Of a stretch of 64,000 nucleotides of DNA, positions 12,433 through 35,422 are shown in pieces; the first letter of the stretch is position 1, and each line of letters starts with the position of its first letter. The DNA is taken from contig NZ_CP108394.1 in the NCBI RefSeq assembly GCF_041435215.1, forward strand, positions 2,976,001 through 3,040,000, given 5' to 3'. The stretch is from Streptomyces sp. NBC_01314 (GTDB taxonomy: Bacteria > Actinomycetota > Actinomycetes > Streptomycetales > Streptomycetaceae). Under the pieces are notes generated by a model. That model searched no databases. It was given only the letters and a program-made list of their open reading frames with translations, and was not told the origin of the DNA. A program made the position numbers and the translations under genes.

Positions 12433-13749
12433 TCAGGCTGTGCCCTCGCCGCCGTCGCGGCAGGGGGCTGTGTGCTGGTAGATGTCGGGGATGCCGTCTG
12501 CGTCCTCGTCCCGTGTCTCGTCCTCCCACAGGCGGCGGTAGATCCCGTTGCGGCGTTTGACCAGCCCCGCCGCGAGCGTCGCGGCGATCAGTGAGCCGAG
12601 CAGCACCGCGGCCTTGATGTGCTCGGCGTCGGCCGGGTCGGGGAAGGAGAGTTCGCCGATCAGCAGGGCGACGGTGAAGCCGATGCCTGCCAGCACCGCC
12701 AACGCGAACACGTCCGCCCACGCCAGGTCTGGGTTGAGTCGGGCCCGGGTGAACCGGGCCGCCAGGTAGGTGGCCGCGAAAATCCCCACCGTCTTGCCCA
12801 CGACCAGACCGAGCACCACCCCCAGCGGCTCCGGACGCGTGAACACCTCACCCACCGCGCCGGCCGACACGCTCACCCCGGCGGCGAACAGCGCGAACAG
12901 CGGCACCGCCACCCCGGCCGAGACCGGCCTCAGCAGATGCTCGGTCCGCTCCCCGGGCGAGGCGTCCTCGCCCTCGTCGCGGACGGTCCGCAGGATCAGG
13001 CCCATCGCCACACCGGCGACCGTGGCGTGCACGCCGCCGTTGTACATCAGCGCCCAGGTCACCACGCCGAGGGGTACGTACCACCACCAGCCGCGTACCC
13101 GGAACCGCTGCAGCACGTAGAACACGACCAGCCCGGCCACGGCCCCGGCGAGCGCGGCCGAGTTCAGGTCACTGCTGAAGAAGACCGCGATCACCAGGAT
13201 CGCGCCCAGATCGTCGACCACCGCGAGGGTCAGCAGGAAGGCCCGCAAGGCCGAGGGCAGGTGGGTGGAGAGCACCGCGAGGACGGCGAGTGCGAAGGCG
13301 ATGTCCGTGGCCATCGGCACCGCCCAGCCCTGACCGCTCCCCCCGCCGAGCCCGGTGGTGGCCAGGTAGACGGCGGCGGGCACCGCCATGCCGCACAGGG
13401 CGGCGATCACGGGCAGGGCGGCGGTGGCCGGGGTCCGCAGTTCGCCGACGACCAGTTCACGCTTCAGCTCGATCCCGGCGACCAGGAAGAAGACGGTCAG
13501 CAGCCCGTCACTGGTCCAGTGCCCCACCGACAGATCCAGGCCGAGCGCGGATATCCCGAAGTGGAAGTCGCGGATGTCCTCGTAGGTGCCGCTCCACGGG
13601 GTGTTCGCCCAGACCAGCGCCACCACGGCCGCCGCCAGGAGCACCAGCCCGCCGACCGTCTCCGTGCGCAGGGCCCGGGCCACCCGCATCTGCTCCGGCC
13701 AAGGCAGCAGGCCGAGGAAGACGGAACGCTCGCGGCGGGGGACGGTCAT
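12433..13749 (-). CDS. nhaA: Na+/H+ antiporter NhaA
   Basis: A 438-aa protein with about 12 transmembrane segments. NhaA hallmarks are FFLVAGIELKREL in the early part, PMATDIAFALAVLA, and the paired aspartates in FLLTLAVVDDLGAILVIAVF that bind the ion in Escherichia coli NhaA. GIGFTVALLIGELSF is a further conserved block. The extension DADGIPDIYQ near the end resembles a calcium-binding loop. ATG 13749 has GGAGG upstream. The leader contains the conserved 24-nt element at 13797-13820 and a GGGCACGTGTGCCC palindrome. It is the first gene of an operon with a CBS protein and a small membrane protein. Confidence 0.95.
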   Translation of the reverse strand: MTVPRRERSVFLGLLPWPEQMRVARALRTETVGGLVLLAAAVVALVWANTPWSGTYEDIRDFHFGISALGLDLSVGHWTSDGLLTVFFLVAGIELKRELVVGELRTPATAALPVIAALCGMAVPAAVYLATTGLGGGSGQGWAVPMATDIAFALAVLAVLSTHLPSALRAFLLTLAVVDDLGAILVIAVFFSSDLNSAALAGAVAGLVVFYVLQRFRVRGWWWYVPLGVVTWALMYNGGVHATVAGVAMGLILRTVRDEGEDASPGERTEHLLRPVSAGVAVPLFALFAAGVSVSAGAVGEVFTRPEPLGVVLGLVVGKTVGIFAATYLAARFTRARLNPDLAWADVFALAVLAGIGFTVALLIGELSFPDPADAEHIKAAVLLGSLIAATLAAGLVKRRNGIYRRLWEDETRDEDADGIPDIYQHTAPCRDGGEGTA

Positions 13750-13796: not shown

Positions 13797-13820
13797 CGCC
13801 GACCAGACTTCCCGGCACAC
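13797..13820 (-). promoter_or_regulatory. Conserved leader element, copy A (nhaA)
   Basis: Minus-strand sequence GTGTGCCGGGAAGTCTGGTC plus GGCG, ending 47 nt before the nhaA start codon. It is identical to copies B, C and D except at one pyrimidine. GCCG and CGGC at its ends can pair around an 11-nt loop, suggesting a structured RNA. Confidence 0.65.
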
Positions 13821-14094
13821 CCCGCGCCTCTTTGACGCGTTCTTTACACACTATCCGCCCATAGCGGCGGGCATGCGGCGGGGGCGCTCCCGATGAGGGG
13901 TCGCCCGCTGCGATCATCATCACGTTTGAGGGGTCGTCGATAACTGTGGCTTCCGGGACCCCGCAGGTCGCGCGGAACGCCGTCGTCCTGGGGGCGCCCG
14001 GGGAAGCCGGCCTCGGCCGCGTACATCCCCGTACTCGATCGCACATCCGAACCGGCGCAGGCCGACAGCCTCGCGGTTCGCAGGTCAGAAGGGC

Positions 14095-15165
14095 TCAGAA
14101 GGGCTTCGTCGGCCAGTCCAGCAGCCGGGCCCCGATCACCGCCGTCTGCAGGGTGTAGCGGTGCACCGGGTCGGACGGGTCGGCGCCGGTGAGCTTGTGG
14201 ATGCGTTCCAGGCGGTAGGTGAAGGCGCGCACGCTCAGCGACAGCCGCCGGGCCGCCTCCGCGGAGACGCAGCCGGAGTCGAAGTAGGCGGTGAGGGTGT
14301 CGAGGAGCGGCTGGGCGCCGCCGCGGGCCTCGCGCAGCGGGCCGAGGGCGCTCGCCACCAGGTCGGCCATGGCCTGCCGGTCGCGGGTGAGGACGGGGTA
14401 GACGAGGAGGTCGGCGGCGCGCAGCACCGGCTCGTCGATCTCCAGGCGTTCGGCCAGGTCGAGGGCGTTCAGCGCCTCCTCGTAGGACTGGACGACACCC
14501 GCCGCGCCGGGCTGCGGACGGCCGATCGCCACCTGGCCTCCCCCCATGGCAGCGAACGCCTGCTTGGCGAAGTACGCGAGAACGTCGCCCTGGTCTCCGG
14601 GGGCGATGCACACGAGCCGCCCGGCCTTGGTGGTGAGCAGGATGCTGCGGTCGCCGAACCGGCCGATCAGCGCCCGCTCCACCTCCCGCAGGACCGGATC
14701 GCCCTCGTCGTACGCGGCCTCGCCGCGCGCCACGGCGACGGCGTGCTCGTACGACAGGCGCAGTCCGTAGCGTTCCGCGCGCTGGGCGAGTCTGCCCAGG
14801 TCGCTGCGGCCGTACAGCAGGTCGTCGACGAACTCCCGGCGGGCGGCCTCCTCCTGGCGGACGGCGAGCCGCTGGGCCCGCTCGTAGCCCTCGGCGAACG
14901 CGTCCAGGGCCTGGGCCGCCGCCGCGAGCATGTCGTCCACGGACCGGTCCTCACCGGTGGGCCAGGTCGACCGCGTCGCGGCCATATGGGCACTGACCAG
15001 GGCACGCAGCCCGACACCGGCTTCCGCGGCCTGCTCACCCAGGGCACGGCGCGAATCGAGTTCCTCCCGGGTCAGCCGGCGGCCGGTCGCCGGAGCATCC
15101 TCGATGATGCCGGCGTACCCCTCCAGGTACTTCGCGTACTCCGCCGCCACGTCCCGCCCTGCCAT
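14095..15165 (-). CDS. PucR-family transcriptional regulator
   Basis: A 356-aa protein. Residues about 1-130 are helical (sensor-like, SRRALGEQAAEAGVGLRALV). The middle is a GGDEF-like domain typical of CdaR/PucR regulators. The C-terminal LLDTLTAYFDSGCVSAEAAR, RLSLSVRAFTYRLERIHKLT and GADPSDPVHRYTLQTAVIGA is the PucR helix-turn-helix (HTH_30). It is monocistronic, convergent with no partner, and divergent from the STAS gene. ATG 15165 begins MAGRDVAAEY; a different-frame ATG sits 4 nt upstream. No effector can be deduced. Confidence 0.88.
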   Translation of the reverse strand: MAGRDVAAEYAKYLEGYAGIIEDAPATGRRLTREELDSRRALGEQAAEAGVGLRALVSAHMAATRSTWPTGEDRSVDDMLAAAAQALDAFAEGYERAQRLAVRQEEAARREFVDDLLYGRSDLGRLAQRAERYGLRLSYEHAVAVARGEAAYDEGDPVLREVERALIGRFGDRSILLTTKAGRLVCIAPGDQGDVLAYFAKQAFAAMGGGQVAIGRPQPGAAGVVQSYEEALNALDLAERLEIDEPVLRAADLLVYPVLTRDRQAMADLVASALGPLREARGGAQPLLDTLTAYFDSGCVSAEAARRLSLSVRAFTYRLERIHKLTGADPSDPVHRYTLQTAVIGARLLDWPTKPF

Positions 15166-15306
15166 CCATGCCCCCGAATGCCGATGCGCCGTTGACGCCT
15201 TTCTAACGCATGAGCCCCTGGGCGGGACGGGCAGGGACGGTGTCCCTGCCCGTCTCCGGCAGTTCCCGGAGGCGGTGCCGGGCATGTGCCGATACGCTGC
15301 CCTCAG

Positions 15307-15330
15307 GTGTGCCGGGAAGCCTGGTCGGCG
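15307..15330 (+). promoter_or_regulatory. Conserved leader element, copy B (STAS gene)
   Basis: The 24-nt element with C at the variable pyrimidine (GCCGGGAAGCCTGGTCGGC core), ending 30 nt before the GTG of the STAS gene. Confidence 0.65.
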
Positions 15331-15360
15331 GATGTTTCCCTCTGCCCCCGGGAGCCGCTC

Positions 15361-15705
15361 GTGCACCTCTTCCCCTTCCGTCACCGCCCACGCCCCGGAC
15401 CGCAGCGCCCCCACGGACATGAGGTGGTCCAGCTGCACGGCGACCTGGACGTGCGCAGCGCCGCGGCGACGGGCAGACGTCTCGTACGGCTGATCCACAC
15501 CGGGCCGGGCGTCCTGGAAGTGGACCTGGCGGACGTGCCGCACCTCAGCCCCACCGGGTGCGCGGCGCTCTTCACCGCGCTCCGCGCCGCCCGCGCACAC
15601 GGCACACGGCTGGTCCTCACCCATCCCAACGAGCAGGTGCGGGTGATGCTGCGGCAGATCGGTCTCACCCGGGCTCTCGCCGGGGGAAAAGACAGCACGG
15701 AGTGA
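15361..15705 (+). CDS. STAS-domain anti-sigma-factor antagonist
   Basis: A 114-aa protein. HEVVQLHGDLDVRSAAATGR, GVLEVDLADVPHLSPTGCAA and RLVLTHPNEQVRVMLRQIGL follow the SpoIIAA/STAS fold. At the usual phosphorylation loop (DSSG) it reads SPTG, leaving Thr as the only hydroxyl at the canonical position. GTG 15361 follows CGGGAG; an upstream in-frame ATG would place the conserved leader element inside the coding region and is disfavoured. STAS antagonists are controlled by kinase and PP2C partners. The only PP2C gene nearby lacks a metal ligand. Confidence 0.8.
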   Translation: MHLFPFRHRPRPGPQRPHGHEVVQLHGDLDVRSAAATGRRLVRLIHTGPGVLEVDLADVPHLSPTGCAALFTALRAARAHGTRLVLTHPNEQVRVMLRQIGLTRALAGGKDSTE

Positions 15706-15726
15706 CGTGCCCCGAAGAACGCGCGT

Positions 15727-15741
15727 TGCCGGACACCGGCA
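15727..15741. promoter_or_regulatory. Palindrome TGCCGG-N3-CCGGCA, copy 2
   Basis: TGCCGGACACCGGCA between the STAS stop and the antiporter leader, 145 nt upstream of the antiporter start. It could be an operator or the base of a weak terminator for the STAS gene. Confidence 0.45.
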
Positions 15742-15812
15742 GCACACGGGCTCCGGAGTTGCGTGCCAAGGACCTGTCAAAGCCGCGTAAAGGACGGGTA
15801 GGGTTCCCCGCG

Positions 15813-15836
15813 GTGTGCCGGGAAGTCTGGTCGGCG
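15813..15836 (+). promoter_or_regulatory. Conserved leader element, copy C (CPA1 antiporter)
   Basis: The 24-nt element with T at the variable pyrimidine, ending 49 nt before the antiporter ATG. It is preceded by GGTTCCCC, which can pair with GGGAA inside the element and would compete with the internal stem. A perfect palindrome AGAGAGCTCTCT (15844-15855) follows before the start codon. Confidence 0.65.
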
Positions 15837-15885
15837 GTCTGGAGAGAGCTCTCTTCGGACTCCTTGCCGATCGGGGGTCTTGGTC

Positions 15886-17121
15886 ATGGTGCTTGTCGTG
15901 GTCTTCGGGGTGGCGCTGCTGATCGCGGTGCTGTTGTCGGGTCTCGCCGCCCGGACCGTTCTGTCGACGTCGCTTCTCTTCCTGGTCGGTGGCGCGCTGG
16001 TCAGTGACGGTTTCCTGGGCCTGATCCACATCACGCCGGACAGCGAGATGGTCTCCGTGACGGCCGACCTGGCACTGTTCGCGGTTCTGTTCACCGACGG
16101 CATGCACGTCTCCTTCCCCAAACTGCGACAGAACTGGCGCAACCCGGCCCGCGCGCTCGGCCTCGGCATGCCGCTGGCCTTCGTCGGCATGGCGCTCCTC
16201 ACGCACTACCTGGTGGGCCTGGACTGGACGACGTCCTTCCTCGTCTGCGCCGTGCTCGCGCCCACCGACCCGGTGTTCGCCTCCGCGATCGTCGGGCGCA
16301 AGGAAGTCCCGTCGAAGCTGCGGCAGTTGCTGAACGTGGAGAGCGGGATCAACGACGGGCTCGCCCTGCCGGTCGTCCTCATCCTGATCGCCGCGGCCGG
16401 GCCGACCTCCGGGCACGCCGAGGCTTCCCTGGGGAAGATCGCACTGGAGCTGGTCCTCGGTCTGGTCTTCGGTGTGGTCCTGCCGTTCGTGGTGATCGAG
16501 CTCGTACGGTTCAGGCTGCTGGGCGCCGAGCCCAAGCTGCAGCCGCTGCTGCCACTGGCGATCGGCGTGATCCTCTACGCGGTCTGCCACCTCACGCACG
16601 CCAACCCCTACCTCGCCGCGTTCTCCGCCGGCGCCGTGCTCACCGCGCGCTCGATCGAAGCGAAGGAGGCGTTCGAGCCACTCGGAGAGGCACTCGCGGA
16701 GCTGGCCAAGTTCGCGGCCCTGCTGGTGTTCGGCGCGCTGCTGACGCCGCAGTTGTTCGGCGATCTGCCCTTCGGCGGCTACATCGCGGTCGTCCTCGCC
16801 ATCGTGCTGATCCGCCCCGCCTCGCTGCTGCTGTCGCTGCTCGGCACCCGGTTCACCCGTCAGGAGAAGCTGGTCGCGGCCTGGTTCGGACCGAAGGGCT
16901 TCGCGTCCGTGGTGTACGGGCTGCTGGTGCTGCAGGCCGGGATCCCGCAGGGCGAGGAGGCGTTCACGCTCATCGCCGTGTGCATCGCCTTCTCCATCGT
17001 CGCGCACAGCTCCACCGACGTACCGATCGCCCGTCTCTTCCACGTCGAGGCCCTCGCGGGCGTGCCCGGCGGCGATGCCTCGCCCCCTACCGCCGAGGAG
17101 GCCGACCGTGTCGGCACGTGA
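15886..17121 (+). CDS. CPA1-type cation/proton antiporter
   Basis: A 411-aa protein with about 12 hydrophobic segments. Typical CPA1 blocks are LALFAVLFTDGMHVSFPKLR, VCAVLAPTDPVFASAIVGRK and RQLLNVESGINDGLALPVVL (the ND motif with ion-binding Asp), then WFGPKGFASVVYGL. It should exchange Na+ or K+ for H+ at the cytoplasmic membrane. ATG 15886 is used; a TTG lies two codons upstream. Its 3' end overlaps the CBS gene at 17108, so the two are cotranslated, mirroring the nhaA-CBS arrangement. Confidence 0.92.
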   Translation: MVLVVVFGVALLIAVLLSGLAARTVLSTSLLFLVGGALVSDGFLGLIHITPDSEMVSVTADLALFAVLFTDGMHVSFPKLRQNWRNPARALGLGMPLAFVGMALLTHYLVGLDWTTSFLVCAVLAPTDPVFASAIVGRKEVPSKLRQLLNVESGINDGLALPVVLILIAAAGPTSGHAEASLGKIALELVLGLVFGVVLPFVVIELVRFRLLGAEPKLQPLLPLAIGVILYAVCHLTHANPYLAAFSAGAVLTARSIEAKEAFEPLGEALAELAKFAALLVFGALLTPQLFGDLPFGGYIAVVLAIVLIRPASLLLSLLGTRFTRQEKLVAAWFGPKGFASVVYGLLVLQAGIPQGEEAFTLIAVCIAFSIVAHSSTDVPIARLFHVEALAGVPGGDASPPTAEEADRVGT

Positions 17122-17563
17122 ACTCGCCGAGCCCTACCCGTACGTGACCACCGACGAGGACGCCGCCCAGGCGCTCCGGCTGCTGGCCCTGCACAGGCTG
17201 CCCGCGCTCCTGGTCGTCGACGCCGACGCCAAGCCGTACGCCGTCGTGCCCTGCGCCCAACTCGTCGGACGGCTCCTGCCGGGGTACACGCGGGAGAGCC
17301 CACCGATCACCGCCGTGAGCGGCGGCGGCAAGGCGGGTGGCGAGGTGCGAAGACAGGTCGAAGGGCTCACAGTCGAGGAGCTACTGCCGCCATGCTCGCT
17401 TGAGCCCCCGACCGTCGGACCGGACGCGAGTGCCACGCAGATCGCGGCCCTCATGGCACGGACGGGCTGTCCGTTGGTCGTCGTCGTCGAACACGACGGC
17501 GACCAGGCATGGTTGGCGGGCGCCGTGACGGCCGCCCGCCTGCTGCGACAACTCGTCGAATGA
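17108..17563 (+). CDS. CBS-domain protein, antiporter partner
   Basis: A 151-aa soluble protein with two CBS motifs: PYPYVTTDEDAAQALRLLAL, RLPALLVVDADAKPYAVVP, then TVGPDASATQIAALMARTGC and PLVVVVEHDGDQAWLAGAVT. CBS pairs usually sense ATP, ADP or AMP. The GTG at 17108 has GAGGAG at 7 nt and overlaps the antiporter stop by 14 nt, implying coupled translation and a regulatory role on the exchanger. The frameshifted paralogue at 11963-12423 sits downstream of nhaA. Regulation of the antiporter is an inference from context. Confidence 0.85.
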   Translation: MSARELAEPYPYVTTDEDAAQALRLLALHRLPALLVVDADAKPYAVVPCAQLVGRLLPGYTRESPPITAVSGGGKAGGEVRRQVEGLTVEELLPPCSLEPPTVGPDASATQIAALMARTGCPLVVVVEHDGDQAWLAGAVTAARLLRQLVE

Positions 17564-17683
17564 TCGTGAGCGGCCGGACGACCGGACCGATACGGCCGTC
17601 GTGACCGCGTGGCCGGCCCGGGCGTCAACGCCAGCGCTCGCGCGGCGGTCTCGGCCACGAACGCATGACCGCACCGCATCACC

Positions 17684-17773
17684 CATGCCCCTGCCCATGC
17701 CCCTGCCCCTGCCCTTGCCCCTGCCCCTGCCCCTGCCCTTGCCCTTGCCCTTGCCCTTGCCCTTGCCCTTGCC
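17684..17773 (+). repeat. Hexanucleotide tandem repeat, 15 copies of CNTGCC
   Basis: Fifteen uninterrupted hexamers of CCTGCC, CTTGCC or CATGCC. The last six units are identical CTTGCC. The array ends directly at GGAGAGG, the ribosome binding site of the gene starting at 17789. Slippage would change the 5' leader length. In one frame the array encodes alternating Leu-Pro. Confidence 0.9.
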
Positions 17774-17792
17774 GGAGAGGACGGCCCCATGA
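17685..17792 (+). CDS. Possible Leu-Pro repeat leader peptide
   Basis: A 35-codon frame entirely made of the hexamer array: MPLPMPLPLP continuing as Leu-Pro to LPERTAP. Its TGA overlaps the next gene's ATG (ATGA), the arrangement expected for translational coupling. No clear ribosome binding site precedes the first ATG, so translation is unproven and the frame may be a by-product of the repeat. Confidence 0.25.
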   Translation: MPLPMPLPLPLPLPLPLPLPLPLPLPLPLPERTAP

Positions 17793-19723
17793 CGGTGTTC
17801 CCTCAGCCCACACGCGGTGTTCCCCAGTCCGGCCACATGATCGTGGCCGGTGACGACGCGCTCGCCGAGCGGCTGGCGGGCGAACTGACAAAGGTGTACC
17901 GGGAGCGGGTCACCCTCGTCGTACCGACCGCGCGACACGCCGTCCCCGACGGGCGGGGGCGTGCCTCGGCCTTCCTCGGCCGGGTGCAGGCCGTCGTGAA
18001 CCGTACGGACGGGGATGTCGGTGCTCCGCAGGTCCTCGAAGCCGCCGAGCTGGACGCGAGCGTGCTGGCCGAGGCCGGTGTACGCGGGGCCGCCGCGCTG
18101 GCCCTGGTACATGACGACGACGAGACCAACATCCGTACCGCGCTGGCCGCCCGGCGCCTCAACCCCCGGCTGCGCCTGGTCATCCGTCTCTACAACCGCA
18201 AGCTCGGCCAGCACCTGGAGGAGCTCCTCGACCAGGCCGCCGCCCTCGCCGTCCCCGGCCTGGACCCGGCCGCCCTGGACACCTCCACCACCGTCCTGTC
18301 CGACGCCGACACGGCCGCCCCCGCCCTCGCGGCCACCGCCGTCGCGGGCACCAGCAAGGTCGTCCAGGCCGACGGGCTGCTCCTGCGGGCGGTGGAGCGC
18401 ACCCCGCCAGGGCAGGGCGAGGTCGCCGATCCCGGACTGTGCACGCTCGCCCTGCTGTCGTCGACCACCAACGACCCGGCGGGCACGGAGGGTTCGGACG
18501 CCAGCGGCCGGGAAGGGCCGACGCTGCTGCCCGACGACGAGACCGTGGCCGCCGCCACCGGACGCGGCACCGTCGTACTGGAGACCGTCACGCACACCGG
18601 CGTCGCTCCCCCGCCCCGCCGCCTCGCAGGACGAGGGCTGCCGCTCGGCTCGCTGTTCTCACGCAGGTTGCGCTGGTCGCTGGCCGGACTCATGGCGTGC
18701 GTGGTCGGCCTGGCCGTCGCGACCTGGGTGACCACCGGCGGCCACCCGCTGCACGCCGCCTACCTCACCCTGCTCGACCTCTTCGCCATCAACGACCCCG
18801 CACTCGACGAGCCCACGACCCGCCAGGTGCTCCAACTCCTGGCCGGACTGGCCGGATTACTGTTCCTGCCCGTGCTGCTGGCCGCCGCCCTGGAGGCGTA
18901 CGGCACCTTCCGCACCGCCTCCGCCCTGCGCCGCCCGCCCCGCGGCCTGTCCGACCACGTCGTCCTGCTCGGCCTCGGCAAGATCGGCACTCGGGTCCTG
19001 GCCCGGCTGACGGAACTCGGCATCCCCGTGGTGTGTGTGGAGGAGGATCCCGAGGCACGCGGCATCCCGCTCGCCCGCCGCCTGCGCGTGCCCACCGTCA
19101 TCGGCGACGTCACCCAGGAAGGCGTCCTGGAAGCCGCCAAGATCCACCGCGCCCACGCCCTGCTCGCCCTCACCAGCATCGACACCACCAACCTCGAAGC
19201 GGCCCTGTACGCCCGCTCCGTCAAACCGGACCTACGCGTCGCGCTGCGCCTGTACGACGACGACTTCGCCACCGCCGTCCACCGCACCCTGCGCGCCGCC
19301 CACCCCCACGCGCTCACCCGCAGCCGCAGCGTCTCGACCCTCGCCGCGCCCGCCTTCGCCGGGGCCATGATGGGCCGCCAGATCCTGGGCGCGATCCCCG
19401 TCGAACGCCGGGTCCTCCTCTTCGCCGCCCTGGACGTCGCCGGTCATCCGCAGCTCGAAGGCCGCACCATCACCGAGTCCTTCCGTGCCGGCGCCTGGCG
19501 GGTCATCGCCCTGGACACCGCCGCCCCCGGCGACCGGATGCCCGACCTCGCCTCCACTCCGGCCCACGACGAGATCGACCACCCCGCCGGACTCGTCTGG
19601 GACCTCCACCCCGGCTACGTCCTCCGACCGCAGGACCGCGTCGTACTCGCCACAACCCGGCAAGGTCTCGCCGAACTCCTCGGCCGACAGCCCCGGCTCC
19701 GGGCACGGTCCTCCGACGTCTAG
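17789..19723 (+). CDS. Two-RCK-domain, channel-like NAD-binding membrane protein
   Basis: A 644-aa protein. Residues about 15-160 are a first Rossmann-like TrkA-N domain with a degenerate glycine motif (MIVAGDDALAERL). Two transmembrane helices flank a short loop at about 288-310 and 345-367, reminiscent of the pore region of K+ channels or CASTOR/POLLUX-type proteins. A second TrkA-N domain starts VVLLGLGKIGTRVLARLTEL, with DVTQEGVLEAAKI later, followed by a TrkA-C-like end. It probably gates or forms an ion conduction path responsive to NAD(H) or nucleotides. ATG 17789 follows GGAGAGG. The loop lacks an obvious TVGYG filter, so K+ selectivity is unproven. Confidence 0.82.
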   Translation: MTVFPQPTRGVPQSGHMIVAGDDALAERLAGELTKVYRERVTLVVPTARHAVPDGRGRASAFLGRVQAVVNRTDGDVGAPQVLEAAELDASVLAEAGVRGAAALALVHDDDETNIRTALAARRLNPRLRLVIRLYNRKLGQHLEELLDQAAALAVPGLDPAALDTSTTVLSDADTAAPALAATAVAGTSKVVQADGLLLRAVERTPPGQGEVADPGLCTLALLSSTTNDPAGTEGSDASGREGPTLLPDDETVAAATGRGTVVLETVTHTGVAPPPRRLAGRGLPLGSLFSRRLRWSLAGLMACVVGLAVATWVTTGGHPLHAAYLTLLDLFAINDPALDEPTTRQVLQLLAGLAGLLFLPVLLAAALEAYGTFRTASALRRPPRGLSDHVVLLGLGKIGTRVLARLTELGIPVVCVEEDPEARGIPLARRLRVPTVIGDVTQEGVLEAAKIHRAHALLALTSIDTTNLEAALYARSVKPDLRVALRLYDDDFATAVHRTLRAAHPHALTRSRSVSTLAAPAFAGAMMGRQILGAIPVERRVLLFAALDVAGHPQLEGRTITESFRAGAWRVIALDTAAPGDRMPDLASTPAHDEIDHPAGLVWDLHPGYVLRPQDRVVLATTRQGLAELLGRQPRLRARSSDV

Positions 19724-19812
19724 AGCGAGCCTCAACGGAAGTCGGCAGCAGCAGCCCCGCACGAGCATCCAGGACATACGGGAGCCGACCCACGAGACAC
19801 ACATGATGCGCC

Positions 19813-19847
19813 AGAAGCCCGGACGGCTGTCTGCCGTCCGGGCTTCT
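19813..19847. terminator. Bidirectional terminator
   Basis: Perfect 15-bp inverted repeat (19813-19827 with 19833-19847) and a 5-nt loop between the convergent RCK gene and the flotillin gene, with TTCT at the plus-strand 3' side. Confidence 0.88.
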
Positions 19848-19903
19848 CCGATGCCGCAGGTGCGGTCACTCGGGCTTACTTGGTCAATCGGACTGACTCG
19901 GGC

Positions 19904-21331
19904 TCACTCGGTGATTTCGACCTTGCCGTTGGCTGTCACGGTGGCCGCGCTCGTCTTCGCCGTCCGTCCTTGGGTGAGTCCCTGGAGGAGTTGGGCGAGG
20001 TCGACTCCGGTGGTGGAGCTGAGGAGTTCCATGCCCTGGGCGACGTTGTCGGCGACGGCGCGCGGGAGCTGTCCGGCACCGTCGGTGGAGATGATGGTCA
20101 GCTTGTCCACGGCCGCCAGCGGCTCGGCGGCCTTGGCGACGACCTGCGGCAGCACCTCGACCAGCATCTGGAGCACGGCCGCGTCGCCGTACCGCTCGAA
20201 GGCGTCGGCCTTCTTGTGCATGGCCCCGGCCTCGGCCGCGCCCTTGGCGGCGATGGCTGCCGCTTCCGCGTCACCTTCGAGGCGTACGGCATCGGCGAGC
20301 GCCGCACGGTGTGCCTTCTCGCCCTCACCGGTGAGCCGGGCCCGCTCGGCCTCCGCCTCCGCCTCCTTGACCAGGGCGATACGGCGGCCTTCGGCCTCCT
20401 GCTCGGCCTGGTAGCGGGCGGCGTCGGCGGGCTTGCGGACCTTGGTGTCCAGCTCACGGTCGGTCAGCTCGGCCTGGCGGGCGGCGACCTTCTCCTGCTC
20501 GCTGAGGACTTCCTGCTCGCGGGCGGCTTCGGCGAGAGGGCCTGCCGCGTTGGCGCGGGCAGCCGCCTCGTCCGTCTCGGCCTTGATCTCGGCCTGCTTC
20601 AGGGCGAAGGTCCGCTGCGCGATGGCGATCTCCTCCTCCGCCTTGAGGCGGGCCTGCTCGGAGGCGCGCCGGGCGACGGCCTCAGCGATGTCCGCCTCCT
20701 GCTTGGCGCGAGCCGCCTCGGGCCGCCCGAGGTCCTCCAGGTAGGAGCCCTCGGTGGTGATGTCCTGGATCTGGAAGGCGTCCAGCACGAGTCCCTGCCC
20801 CGACAGGCTGGCCTCGGCCTCCTCGGCCACCTGACCGGCGAACGCGGCACGGTCGCGGATGATGTCCTCCACCGACATCCGGCCGACGATGGAGCGCAGC
20901 GCGCCGGACAGCACCTCCTGGGTGAACCCGACGATGCCGTCCTGCTGCATCAGGAACCGCTGGGCGGCGGCGCGTATGGAGTCCTCGGTGCCGCCGACCT
21001 TGACGATCGCGACGCCCTCCAGATTGGCCTTGACCCCGCGCAGGGTGACCGCGCCCCGCACGGCGATCGGAATGTGCCGGCTGGACAGGTCCAGGGTGAA
21101 CTTCTGCTGCACGAAGGGCACGACGAAGACACCGCCGCCGACCACGACCTTCTGACCGCTGTTGTCGGTGAACACCCGCCCGGTCTCCGGGTCGGTGGAC
21201 TTCTTGCCGCGCCGCCCGGTGACGATGAACGCCTCACTGGGCCCCGCGACCTTGTAGCGGGTGACCACCACCAGGGCCAGCAGGACCAGGAGTACGACGA
21301 CTCCCGCCACCGCGACGAGTACAGGGCTCAT
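19904..21331 (-). CDS. Flotillin-like SPFH protein
   Basis: A 475-aa protein. An N-terminal hydrophobic anchor (about 4-24) is followed by the SPFH/band-7 domain (SEAFIVTGRRGKKSTDPETG to about 200, including QDGIVGFTQEVLSGALRSIV and MSVEDIIRDRAAFAGQV). A long Ala/Glu-rich coiled coil (about 210-400) and a flotillin-type C-terminus (QMLVEVLPQVVAKAAEPLAA) complete it. Flotillins organise membrane microdomains. The NfeD-like gene upstream (21480-21989) is the usual partner and is transcribed in the same direction. ATG 21331 follows GAGAGGA. Confidence 0.92.
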   Translation of the reverse strand: MSPVLVAVAGVVVLLVLLALVVVTRYKVAGPSEAFIVTGRRGKKSTDPETGRVFTDNSGQKVVVGGGVFVVPFVQQKFTLDLSSRHIPIAVRGAVTLRGVKANLEGVAIVKVGGTEDSIRAAAQRFLMQQDGIVGFTQEVLSGALRSIVGRMSVEDIIRDRAAFAGQVAEEAEASLSGQGLVLDAFQIQDITTEGSYLEDLGRPEAARAKQEADIAEAVARRASEQARLKAEEEIAIAQRTFALKQAEIKAETDEAAARANAAGPLAEAAREQEVLSEQEKVAARQAELTDRELDTKVRKPADAARYQAEQEAEGRRIALVKEAEAEAERARLTGEGEKAHRAALADAVRLEGDAEAAAIAAKGAAEAGAMHKKADAFERYGDAAVLQMLVEVLPQVVAKAAEPLAAVDKLTIISTDGAGQLPRAVADNVAQGMELLSSTTGVDLAQLLQGLTQGRTAKTSAATVTANGKVEITE

Positions 21332-21422
21332 GGTGAATATCCTCTCAGCCGTCCCCCGAGGGCGGCGAAATGAAATCGGATCAGGAACGCAGATTGAGAT
21401 CAGGAGCAGATGCAGATACAGA

Positions 21423-21441
21423 CAGGCAGGCAGGCAGGCAG
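21423..21441 (+). repeat. Short tetranucleotide repeat CAGG
   Basis: Four full CAGG units plus a partial unit in the AG-rich spacer between the flotillin and NfeD-like genes. Function unknown. Confidence 0.7.
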
Positions 21442-21479
21442 ACAAAGGGCCCGGTCTGCCGGAAGACGCGGCGTGGCGG

Positions 21480-21989
21480 TCAGCGCTCGACGAGCCGGAC
21501 CTGGACGGACGTCTCCGACAGCGACGCCTCGACCCACACTTCGGCGCCTCGCGGGACATGCACATGGCTCCTGGCGGCGAGCTTCAGCGGCTGCCCGGCG
21601 AGATACACCAGCACCTCGCCGTACCCCTCGGCCGGAATGGCCGTGACCACGGAGCCGGAACTGCCGATGAGGTCGCCGCCGCGTGGAGCGGCCGCGGTCC
21701 GATCACTCATCAGTGCGCGGCTGAACCGATACGTCCCCCAGCCCGCGCCGACGCCCGCCACCACCCCCACACCGGTGGCCCCCGCGGCCCCCAGCCCGGT
21801 GGTGCCGAGCACGATCGCGCCGCTGAAGCCCAACATCGACACGAACCCGGCAATGACCGGCAGCGACAGCAAGCCGTCGAAGACACCGTCCAGCACTCCG
21901 TCGAGCACCCCTTCGAGGAGCCCGTCGAAGATCAACGAGAAGGCGAGCAGCACCAGCCCCGCGATACCGAGACCCAGAAACCAGCTCAT
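21480..21989 (-). CDS. NfeD-like (YuaF-type) membrane protein
   Basis: A 169-aa protein. Three hydrophobic segments occupy the first half. The first loop carries a heptad-like repetition (LLEGVLDGVLDGVFDGLL), and Gly/Ala-rich helices follow. The C-terminal soluble part (IGSSGSVVTAIPAEGYGEVL, VYLAGQPLKLAARS, VPRGAEVWVE) fits the OB-fold domain of NfeD proteins that accompany flotillins, as in Bacillus YuaF-FloT. ATG 21989 has a strong AAGGAGGGG site. Transcribed into the flotillin gene with a 148-nt spacer. Confidence 0.78.
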   Translation of the reverse strand: MSWFLGLGIAGLVLLAFSLIFDGLLEGVLDGVLDGVFDGLLSLPVIAGFVSMLGFSGAIVLGTTGLGAAGATGVGVVAGVGAGWGTYRFSRALMSDRTAAAPRGGDLIGSSGSVVTAIPAEGYGEVLVYLAGQPLKLAARSHVHVPRGAEVWVEASLSETSVQVRLVER

Positions 21990-22057
21990 ACGGGCCCCTC
22001 CTTCGTACGACGACCCCCTGCGCACGAATGTTCCCATACAGCCCCGGCGCGCCACAC

Positions 22058-22072
22058 TGCCGGACTCCGGCA
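22058..22072. promoter_or_regulatory. Palindrome TGCCGG-N3-CCGGCA, copy 3
   Basis: TGCCGGACTCCGGCA in the gap between the divergent NfeD-like gene (69 nt upstream of its start) and the PH-domain gene. Confidence 0.45.
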
Positions 22073-22274
22073 ATCTTTACGCGGTCTTCATGCTCGTCTT
22101 CTGCAGCCGCCGACGGGCCGGCGTCCCTCGGGCCATCGCCCGGCGCCCGCCGACCCGCACTCGCCCTCCAGGTCGACCCTGCCTGCCATGCCGGTCCCCG
22201 GCAGCATCCCAGCAGCCACAGTGCGCCCCTTGGACCTGTTGTCGGCGGACGAGGGCCATGTACGGTTCCCCTCG

Positions 22275-22298
22275 GTGTGCCGGGAAGCCTGGTCGGCG
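22275..22298 (+). promoter_or_regulatory. Conserved leader element, copy D (PH-domain gene)
   Basis: The 24-nt element with C at the variable pyrimidine, ending 30 nt before GTG 22329. As in copy C it is preceded by GGTTCCCC at the same distance, so similarity extends over about 35 nt. Confidence 0.65.
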
Positions 22299-22328: not shown

Positions 22329-22988
22329 GTGACCATCCCCGGCCTCGCCGCGTACCTGCGGACGCGGCGCACCGCACACAGAGACAACAGACGCCGGCGG
22401 CACCTGATCCGTGAACAGCGGCTCGACGCGCTGGCCCGAGAGACGGCACCACCGCCGACGCCGCCGAGCTGGCGCGCCGGCCGGGGTGGACGCGTTCTCG
22501 CCGTCCTCTGGGGTGCACAGTTTCTGTGGTTCGTCGTGCGTCCGGCCGCAGAGGAGGAGGCCCGCGCCACTCCGGGTGACTGGATCTTCCTGTTCTGGGC
22601 GTCGCTGGTCGCCACATGGGTGGGTTGCCGCCTGGGAATGTGGCGAGTCACCGCAGGCCGCAGTGGTGTGTGGATACGGCGGTTCCGAACCGTCGTGTTT
22701 CTTCCCTGGCAGGAGATCAGCCGTGTGGACATGCGGCGGGATGGCTTGCTGGAGTTCTTCGACGGTCACAGACAACCCATGGCCGGGCTGTACGGCCCAG
22801 CGTGGCTGAACCGGATCCTCCGCCGTCCCGATGCCGGACAGCGGACGGCCGACCTCCTGACGGTCATGGCCCGGCACCCTCGCCTGCGCCCGGGCACGGA
22901 TCCCGACCGGCGGCTCAGGAGCCGGCCGTTCGCCGTGTGGTCGCCCCTGACCATGTGCGTCATCGCCATGGCGGGCCTGATCTCCTGA
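22329..22988 (+). CDS. PH-domain membrane protein
   Basis: A 219-aa protein. A basic N-terminus (RTRRTAHRDNRRRRHLIREQ) precedes two membrane segments (about 62-80 and 92-115). The next part, VTAGRSGVWIRRFRTVVFLP, WQEISRVDMRRDGLLEFFDG, fits the small bacterial PH domain of PF10756 proteins. A last hydrophobic segment closes the protein. GTG 22329 follows CCGGAGG. The function of this family is unknown. The gene shares the conserved leader element with two antiporters, suggesting common control. Confidence 0.65.
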   Translation: MTIPGLAAYLRTRRTAHRDNRRRRHLIREQRLDALARETAPPPTPPSWRAGRGGRVLAVLWGAQFLWFVVRPAAEEEARATPGDWIFLFWASLVATWVGCRLGMWRVTAGRSGVWIRRFRTVVFLPWQEISRVDMRRDGLLEFFDGHRQPMAGLYGPAWLNRILRRPDAGQRTADLLTVMARHPRLRPGTDPDRRLRSRPFAVWSPLTMCVIAMAGLIS

Positions 22989-27814: not shown

Positions 27815-28080
27815 CGCCCAGGAGTGACACTGGCCGCGATCCACCAGAACAGCGGTCCCAAGACCTTCGGTGACATATCGAACGCCGGAATGCTGGTTTT
27901 CGAGGGGCACAAGGAGCTACTGAAGGACGACTTCGCGCAGGTCACAGGATCCAGCGCCGCCACCGTCGCAGAGTTCCCCCGGGAAGCCTCGTCGGCTGGG
28001 AGTTTCACGAGATGATCCGAGAATTCGACAGCGCCCCCGTGGTCTTCGCTGCGGAAATAAGCAACGCCCTATGGCACTGA
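27815..28080 (+). pseudogene. Decayed partial copy of a TerD gene
   Basis: AAIHQNSGPKTFGDISNAGM and LLKDDFAQVTGSSAATVAEF match the intact TerD at 23680-24213 almost word for word, and the DNA is also similar. The N-terminal half is missing and a frameshift near 27990 moves the tail (FHEMIREFDSAPVVFAAEIS) to another frame. The surrounding gap 27561-28347 has no other recognisable gene. Confidence 0.75.
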
Positions 28081-34559: not shown

Positions 34560-35422
34560 GGGTGTGCGGGCTTTCCGGCGGGCGTGCGGTGTGCGTCGAC
34601 GTGCGTCGGTTTCGGACGGTGGAGTTCGAGGAAGGGGCGGCCATGAGCCGTCCACCGGCCGGTCAGGACCCAGCCGGTGGCGTCGGCGGCGTACAGCAGC
34701 GCGGTGGTGCCTATACGGGCCCAGGGGAACGGCCGGCCGTGCCGTCCCTGGCCGTCCTCGACGCGGACGGTGAGGCGTTCGTCCACGTCGTGCGGGGCGG
34801 CCTCGGCCAGCAGGCACCCGCCGGGAGCGACCAGTTCTCGCAGCCGGGTGAGCAGGGCGAGCGGGTCGCCGCCGATGCCGACGTTGCCGTCGATCAGCAG
34901 GGCGGTGCCCCAGCCGCCTTCCCCCGGCAGGCGGTCGAAGACGGACCGTCGTACGGCGGCACCCCCGTGGCGCCGGGTCCGGGTGACGGCGGCCGGGCTG
35001 ACGTCCGCACCCAGTGCCGGTACACCGCGGGCGGCCAGGGCGGCCACCAGACGTCCCGGCCCGCAGCCGACGTCCAGGACGGGACCTGTGCAGCGGCTCA
35101 GCACGCTGGTGTCGGCGGCGTCGGGGGGTGCGCACCAGCGCTCGACGTCCAACGGGAGCACCTCCTCGCTGAGGCCGTCCGGGTGATCGGGGGGTGACAG
35201 GCGGCGCAGGAACAGCGGGCCGCGGCCGGCGCGAAGGGCGTGGGCATAGGGGTCGTCGGTCCACGGCTCGCCCGGCTCTCGGGGTGCGAACAGATCCGTG
35301 GGTTGTGTCGGCGTGGGGGTCCGCGACGTGCGCGCCGTCAGGGTCTGGGGCTGCGGTCCCGTCGTGGCCGGCTCTGTCCACTCGGTCACGGCGGTGTCCA
35401 GGCCGGTCGCCGTCCCGCTCAT
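34556..35422 (-). CDS. Class I SAM-dependent methyltransferase
   Basis: A 288-aa protein. After a Thr/Pro-rich N-terminus (about 1-55), the SAM motif is CTGPVLDVGCGPGRLVAALA, then ALGADVSPAAVTRTRRHG, and LLIDGNVGIGGDPLALLTRL for the later strands. ATG 35422 follows GGAGG and overlaps the DUF2064 stop (ATGA), and its stop overlaps the GT87 start. The tight operon implies a role in modifying the same glycoconjugate. Confidence 0.85.
   Translation of the reverse strand: MSGTATGLDTAVTEWTEPATTGPQPQTLTARTSRTPTPTQPTDLFAPREPGEPWTDDPYAHALRAGRGPLFLRRLSPPDHPDGLSEEVLPLDVERWCAPPDAADTSVLSRCTGPVLDVGCGPGRLVAALAARGVPALGADVSPAAVTRTRRHGGAAVRRSVFDRLPGEGGWGTALLIDGNVGIGGDPLALLTRLRELVAPGGCLLAEAAPHDVDERLTVRVEDGQGRHGRPFPWARIGTTALLYAADATGWVLTGRWTAHGRPFLELHRPKPTHVDAHRTPAGKPAHP

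Follow-up and report, generated by a model that had tools for sequence, protein, structure and literature searches.

Riboswitches of the Li+-I and Li+-II classes (the nhaA-I and nhaA-II motifs), the Na+-I class (the DUF1646 motif) and the Na+-II class (nhaA-I variants) are described as preceding nhaA or other monovalent cation transporter genes. Reporter fusions of the Li+ riboswitches are reported to be activated by Li+, that is, to behave as ON switches (PMC9646797, PMC9337991), and only one bacterial protein is stated to have been shown to sense Na+ selectively and to control genes (PMC9337991). The words 'Streptomyces' and 'Actinobacteria' appear in neither of these two main texts, and a narrow literature search returned no account of actinobacterial sodium sensing. 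Here, we report a 25-nt element, GGTGTGCCGGGAAGYCTGGTCGGCG, that occurs four times within a 64,000-nt stretch of the genome of Streptomyces sp. NBC_01314 (contig NZ_CP108394.1, positions 2,976,001 to 3,040,000; hereafter the window), each time in the sense orientation of the gene downstream: nhaA, a STAS-domain gene, a CPA1 antiporter gene and an unclassified gene. We computed its conservation, its position near a promoter-like box, the covariation of its stem, its gene association and its predicted pairing with the ribosome-binding site. On this basis we give a probability of about 0.55 to the reading that the element is a minimal 5′-terminal riboswitch activating translation, whose signal would be Na+, another monovalent cation related to it, or alkaline pH; the ligand, its direct binding and the ON direction are the parts that we infer.

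The 19-nt core of the element matches the window six times at up to three mismatches (four of them exact), against 0.11 matches expected, and none of 100 shuffles reaches six. The two weaker matches, at 27978-27996 and 35042-35060 (two and three mismatches, respectively), are probably due to chance. Searching the whole 11.3-Mb genome with a 22-nt pattern at up to three mismatches yields five copies in all, the four in the window and a fifth that precedes a second nhaA (PF06965) at a distance of 2 Mb. The original prediction, made by a model from the letters alone, had described four sense-oriented copies ending 47, 30, 49 and 30 nt before start codons; all four were found at their places, and the distances agree with the sequence as read by eye. 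The unit it had delimited as 24 nt is indeed shared, its length being one base greater at the 5′ side.

The element consists of a 5′ GGNG segment, a closing wobble position (−1/19), a 4-bp stem (positions 0–3 with 15–18) and an 11-nt loop, GGAAGNCUGGU, which is nearly invariant across the copies found with search patterns that included it. In alignment A1, which comprises 40 of 58 candidate sequences (12 of the 13 variant rows, with the rest chosen from sites having TANNNT at exactly −18), three of the four stem pairs change on both sides, in 7 cells against 0.6 in shuffles, and the covariation score is reached by none of 500 shuffles. Two loci lying in coding sequence with no promoter (L208 and L213; loci are cited by our own numbers) were left out of the 58-sequence set. 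Because A1 was enriched in variants by choice, we searched 266 genomes specifically for altered left arms, with position 0, 1 or 2 non-consensus, the loop exact, position 19 other than T and the right arm free. This search returned 18 loci, and in nine of them the right arm is fully complementary: TCC/GGA accounts for four loci of a single genus, and GTC/GAC and GCT/AGC are spread over three and two families, respectively. Each of the nine has TANNNT at the usual offset, and by Pfam the gene behind it encodes NhaA in four cases, an ABC-transporter ATPase in four and MrpA in one. The nine loci with non-complementary arms have no TANNNT at that offset, and Pfam gives no transporter family for the eight downstream frames found behind them. 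These compensatory changes, in A1 and in the altered-left-arm search alike, bear out the proposed pairing of GCCG with CGGC. They also agree with the earlier view that conservation lies in the nucleic acid and not in protein, and specify RNA: arms that vary freely yet stay complementary suggest that the element acts as an RNA hairpin and are a poor fit to a DNA-reading protein.

The closing position fits an RNA hairpin too, although the same letters would result from two unequal DNA half-sites. Across 218 sites (L208 and L213 kept, L218 lying outside the pattern of this count), −1/19 is the strongest column pair, at 0.47 bits, with U.G in 94 sites, C.A in 66 and Watson–Crick pairs in 19; the 159 sites with a near promoter-like box give 68, 45 and 11. 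Because U.G and C.A+ wobbles are isosteric, the letters at −1/19 fit an RNA closing pair. Three other structures were considered and rejected: an inner CCGG/CUGG hairpin, which is the folding preference of the isolated element, shows no compensatory change; a two-tier G-quadruplex of GG pairs conflicts with the joint change of G16 and G17 to A together with their stem partners; and pairing of the 5′ GGN with a downstream NCC finds no matching preference at position −3. Two subclasses stand out among the variants. The TCC/GGA copies (L209-L212, equal to sites L224-L226 and L228) occur among the 266 genomes only in genus g4 of family f4, before an ABC ATPase gene, and all four have the stretch TGAAAGTT (TGAAACTT in L211) upstream of the −10 box. 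A U11-to-G subclass in families f24, f58 and f67 is followed by nhaA (L222), an ABC ATPase gene (L223) and Mrp-type antiporter genes (L189, L190).

The element has a preferred position relative to a promoter-like box, which often lies 13 nt upstream of it. Of 193 unique sites, 83 have a TANNNT beginning at −18, 21 have one at −19 and 8 have one at −17; further upstream the mean is 1.5 per offset. A −10 box usually lies 6–8 nt from the transcription start; with TANNNT most often at −18, the mRNA would thus begin at or next to the invariant GG, and we infer from this spacing that the element is usually the mRNA 5′ end. G−5, G−4 and G−2 are conserved in 99–100% of 192 sites, and the search patterns that brought L036-L184 did not include these positions. 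The same geometry disposes of the switch first suggested, in which an upstream GGTTCCCC pairs with GGGAA: both copies of GGTTCCCC start inside the −10-like box (TAGGGT or TACGGT) and hence lie upstream of the predicted transcription start. Folding predictions favour another alternative pairing, in which the element engages the downstream ribosome-binding site, chiefly through its 3′ half. At five loci (L086, L095, L135, L145 and L243) paired copies point apart with about 100–850 bases between them, and probably serve divergent genes.

To characterize this pairing, we folded 146 of 188 called leaders (distance 18–110 nt, gene clusters 0–7), of which 145 offer at least 22 nt. In the predicted free fold of native leaders, element positions mostly 4–5 and 9–16 pair with the ribosome-binding-site region. 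This pairing is stronger with the native than with a shuffled element in 120 of the 146 leaders. Its predicted value is 0.52 for the 145 native leaders; with the element grafted onto 212 other genes it is 0.19. CGACC, the complement of GGUCG, is found no more than 41 nt away in 69 of 191 leaders, where 28.5 were expected. With the element hairpin forced, the site becomes more open (predicted gain above 0.1) in 86 of the 145 native leaders and in 45 of the 212 controls. The leader of copy 3 folds 4.5 standard deviations more stably than its shuffles. As a modelled pattern, this folding would point to an ON switch.

Downstream of the element lie mainly cation transporter genes. A cation or cation/H+ transporter-type gene is first, or lies within about 1.2 kb, in 150 of the 188 called leaders (NhaA 117, CPA 20, CitMHS superfamily 9, and one each of MrpA, a Na/Ca exchanger, TrkH and an RCK-domain protein). 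By gene cluster alone, cluster 0 (NhaA) holds 114 of the 188 sites and cluster 1 (PF00999) 20, and the larger count also takes in neighbouring genes (up to about 1.2 kb away) and first genes that had been mis-called. Families were assigned from Pfam scans of representatives, and genes were called by a crude script; at least three first genes are mis-called or precede an antiporter. The first 35 loci all come from the genus of the window, towards which the counts lean. Five further leaders precede an ABC ATPase of the DrrA/NatA type, which we take, by analogy with NatA, to be linked to Na+ export. The remaining genes include a permease without a Pfam family (5), SulP (2), DUF2254 (2), PEP-synthase-like proteins (3) and hydrolases. 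The counts support the link to ion and pH genes drawn in the original prediction, and the association with nhaA and other cation transporter genes is as in the Li+-I, Li+-II and Na+-I classes; the element is a conserved structured RNA in the 5′ leaders of functionally related genes, as is expected of a riboswitch. In six of the seven CitMHS loci (L039, L079, L094, L157, L166 and L180) a small CBS-domain gene, possibly encoding a nucleotide-sensing subunit, stands between element and transporter. PEP-synthase/rifampicin-phosphotransferase-like genes follow the element at L105, L133 and L145 and are unexplained for an ion-linked leader.

The element is not confined to one genus and is found throughout the class and in other classes of the phylum. 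At up to one mismatch, the 19-nt core matches 197 of 296 class genomes, and a reversed-pattern control about 20 of 296. With a covariance model that takes in the −10 box, 277 of the 394 genomes scanned from the class have a match at E ≤ 0.05, a few of these scoring weakly. The matches come from 93 of the class's 137 sampled genera, with 1 to 9 copies per matching genome among the rows listed. In a sample of the phylum, 45 of 149 genomes match at up to two mismatches, and outside the class 33 of 137 do, 29 of these exactly. A scan of named genomes gave at least 119 stretches; among the 80 listed, 77 are actinobacterial, including Acidimicrobiaceae and Solirubrobacterales metagenome-assembled genomes, and the others are two Chloroflexi metagenome-assembled genomes and one Mesorhizobium, the last without a near −10 box or a gene call. 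All 101 genomes of the window's own genus match at up to three mismatches, but the reversed control also matches often at that looseness, and we therefore judged the spread from the one-mismatch and covariance searches.

These data are consistent with a simple built-in mechanism. The element would be an aptamer, a cis-regulatory RNA at the predicted mRNA 5′ end in most copies. When the signal is absent, the element, mainly its 3′ half (CUGGUCGGC), would pair with the ribosome-binding-site region and keep the site shut. The signal is most likely a rise in Na+, if not a related monovalent cation or an alkaline pH; once it is bound, the element would fold on itself, and formation of its hairpin would free the ribosome-binding site, so that antiporters could be made.

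Several observations weigh against this riboswitch reading. The predicted mean cost of forcing the hairpin, with loop and GGNG unpaired, is 11.4 kcal/mol in native leaders and 7.6 in controls, and on this folding model 11.4 kcal/mol is a large price for a small ion. The other five of the six sequences folded alongside one another, copy 3 apart, are not clearly more stable than shuffles, and an aptamer of only about 25 nt would be required. No xAnnnT box starts at −19 to −17 in 55 of the 193 sites. Many of these are nhaA leaders of the window's own genus, and several, including copy 1 of the window, have a small hairpin (for example GCGTC..GACGC) between a more distant box and the element. The fold z-score of such upstream hairpins averages −0.88 in 59 sites without a near −10 box and −0.16 in 159 others, which is suggestive only; for nhaA copy 1, the hairpin CGCGTCAAAGAGGCGCG may form the mRNA 5′ end. 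With respect to the stem, two loci with a promoter-like box break a pair: C1.A17 in L217, upstream of a CPA antiporter gene, and C2.A16 in L218, where G−2 is A and no Pfam family follows. L242, from the phylum-sample search, is complementary yet without promoter or transporter; the four TCC/GGA copies of one genus are probably one event; and the targeted search took in only copies altered in the left arm. Among the genes, the NCBIfam match of the ABC ATPase, to DrrA, is below the cut-off, the role of the CitMHS and ABC systems as Na+ movers is putative, and PEP-synthase-like, hydrolase, STAS and 219-amino-acid proteins among the targets are not ion transporters.

The main rival, which we hold to be unlikely but the most serious, is that the hairpin is a site for an RNA-binding protein or another trans factor that blocks or opens translation, the protein doing the sensing. 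The iron-responsive element of animals is such a hairpin, bound by a protein that controls translation, and protein-bound hairpins typically combine a short stem with a loop that hardly varies; conservation, covariation and position fit this explanation equally well. No candidate protein was identified, and no search for one was made; such a partner would need to be conserved wherever the element occurs, outside the class too, whereas the predicted pairing with the ribosome-binding site supplies a simpler built-in switch. Decidedly less probable is that a repressor responsive to cations or pH binds the element as DNA, at an operator covering the first transcribed bases. The preferred place just downstream of the −10 box is a classic repressor site, and T..G and C..A at −1/19 are mutually reverse-complementary, as two unequal half-sites in either order would be. 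Outside the 4-bp arms, however, there is no palindrome of the kind a two-fold-symmetric site would have, few sites (19 of 218) are perfectly palindromic at −1/19, and the element has a single orientation relative to the −10 box and the gene where one was found (genes were sought on the sense side only). Arms that go to TCC/GGA, GTC/GAC and GCT/AGC while staying complementary would be hard to accommodate for a protein that reads bases, and in the pairing tests the downstream leaders are matched to the element. Weaker again, and improbable in our judgement, is a constitutive 5′-end feature of a promoter type that serves mRNA stability or initial transcription without sensing. The frequent location at the predicted transcription start would suit it, but the element marks mainly transporter genes, at 1 to 9 copies per matching genome among the rows listed, and its loop, which lay within the search patterns, is almost invariant. 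A mobile or REP-type repeat can practically be dismissed: four copies do lie within 8.5 kb of the window and some flanking bases are common to copies 3 and 4 (GGTTCCCC on the upstream side, GGTC on the downstream side), but the other flanks differ, five copies in 11.3 Mb, each before an open reading frame, are too few, and in other genomes many of the copies are accompanied by a −10-like box at one offset instead of being scattered.

For the riboswitch reading, the downstream genes point to Na+, Li+, K+ or pH as candidate signals. The distant nhaA of this genome is presumably, from gene order, the counterpart of SCO3564 of S. coelicolor. Published hints as to the signal are indirect only: SCO3564 is reported to have a role in the alkaline stress response (PMC12892944), and in S. 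venezuelae its counterpart and a second antiporter are reported to rise about 7-fold on nitrogen starvation (ammonium withdrawal) and to fall 4.6-fold and 4.1-fold, respectively, on ammonium return (PMC3087709). The response of the SCO3564 counterpart is lost in a glnR mutant (PMC3087709), which argues for control at the promoter as well.

A further claim, that this RNA of about 25 nt is by itself a selective sensor of Na+ (or of another monovalent cation or pH) and a general regulator of unrelated Na+/H+ antiporters across Actinomycetota, is one we put forward tentatively and at somewhat less than even odds. If true, it would reveal a widespread bacterial sodium sensor, missed by structure-based searches because its stem has four pairs, and would explain the common control of NhaA, CPA, Mrp and other systems. 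It would also be, to our knowledge, the smallest natural riboswitch aptamer, setting a new lower bound for natural aptamers, and would imply that short 5′-terminal RNAs with few pairs can evade covariation-based discovery.

The features of the window are collected in Table 1. Between the divergent nhaA and STAS leaders lies a gene for a PucR-type regulator with GGDEF_2 and HTH_30 domains (about 14095-15160, minus strand, extent estimated). The protein encoded after copy 4, thought at first to be a PH-domain protein, could not be confirmed as such, as it has no Pfam match at E ≤ 1 and no NCBIfam match at E ≤ 0.01.

Table 1. Element copies, candidate promoter boxes and associated genes in the window (window coordinates).
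Feature	Position	Strand	Basis
nhaA, Na+/H+ antiporter (PF06965)	12433..13749	-	Pfam; start codon picked by Shine-Dalgarno position
Element copy 1, nhaA leader	13797..13821	-	25 nt; pattern search
Short hairpin CGCGTCAAAGAGGCGCG between more distant candidate promoter and copy 1	13823..13839	-	Predicted fold
Candidate −10 box TAGTGT of nhaA	13848..13853	-	Read by eye
Candidate −10 box TACGCT, 13 nt before copy 2	15293..15298	+	Sequence; offset as in relatives
Element copy 2, STAS gene leader	15306..15330	+	Pattern search
STAS-domain protein (anti-sigma-factor antagonist type)	15361..15705	+	Pfam, NCBIfam
Candidate −10 box TAGGGT, 13 nt before copy 3; overlaps GGTTCCCC	15799..15804	+	Sequence; offset as in relatives
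Element copy 3, CPA1 antiporter leader	15812..15836	+	Pattern search, covariance model
GCCGATCGGGGG, pairs with CTGGTCGGC of copy 3 in predicted free fold; includes ribosome-binding region	15866..15877	+	
CPA1-type Na+(K+)/H+ antiporter (PF00999)	15886..17121	+	Pfam, NCBIfam
Candidate −10 box TACGGT, 13 nt before copy 4	22261..22266	+	Sequence; offset as in relatives
Element copy 4	22274..22298	+	Pattern search
Open reading frame, 219 amino acids, without family match	22329..22988	+	Pfam, NCBIfam

Comparison with described systems suggests that the element represents an undescribed class of RNA that probably works like an ion riboswitch. As the original prediction had recognised no known riboswitch class, so Rfam gives no match in the whole window at the gathering score, and at E ≤ 10 one leader matches only ROSE_3 and che1, far below their cut-offs, and a second leader nothing. 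The Rfam library presumably holds covariance models of Li+-I, Li+-II and Na+-I, and by this measure the element belongs to none of them; because no Rfam model matches despite a like gene context, we treat it as a class of its own and claim no membership in a known one. A literature search, with subscription journals, preprints and supplements outside its scope, found no description of it. Iron-responsive-element-type hairpins share with the element a short 5′ leader hairpin, an invariant loop and transport genes, but are eukaryotic and have a known protein partner, whereas none is known for the element. The preQ1-I riboswitch likewise has a very small aptamer, by whose folding the ribosome-binding site is opened or closed, but it exceeds 25 nt, is pseudoknotted and has another ligand and other genes; 'unusually small aptamer domain' is the wording of a reference title in the preQ1-I context (PMC10043782). 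The dauA motif, like copy 2, lies in the leader of a STAS gene in Streptomyces but is described as a three-stem junction with 57 Streptomyces representatives (PMC11109978), and on that description would differ from the element. The Li+ and Na+ riboswitches, finally, are described as multi-stem aptamers (P1, P2; construct '73 nhaA') (PMC9646797, PMC9337991), in contrast to the single four-pair stem of the element.

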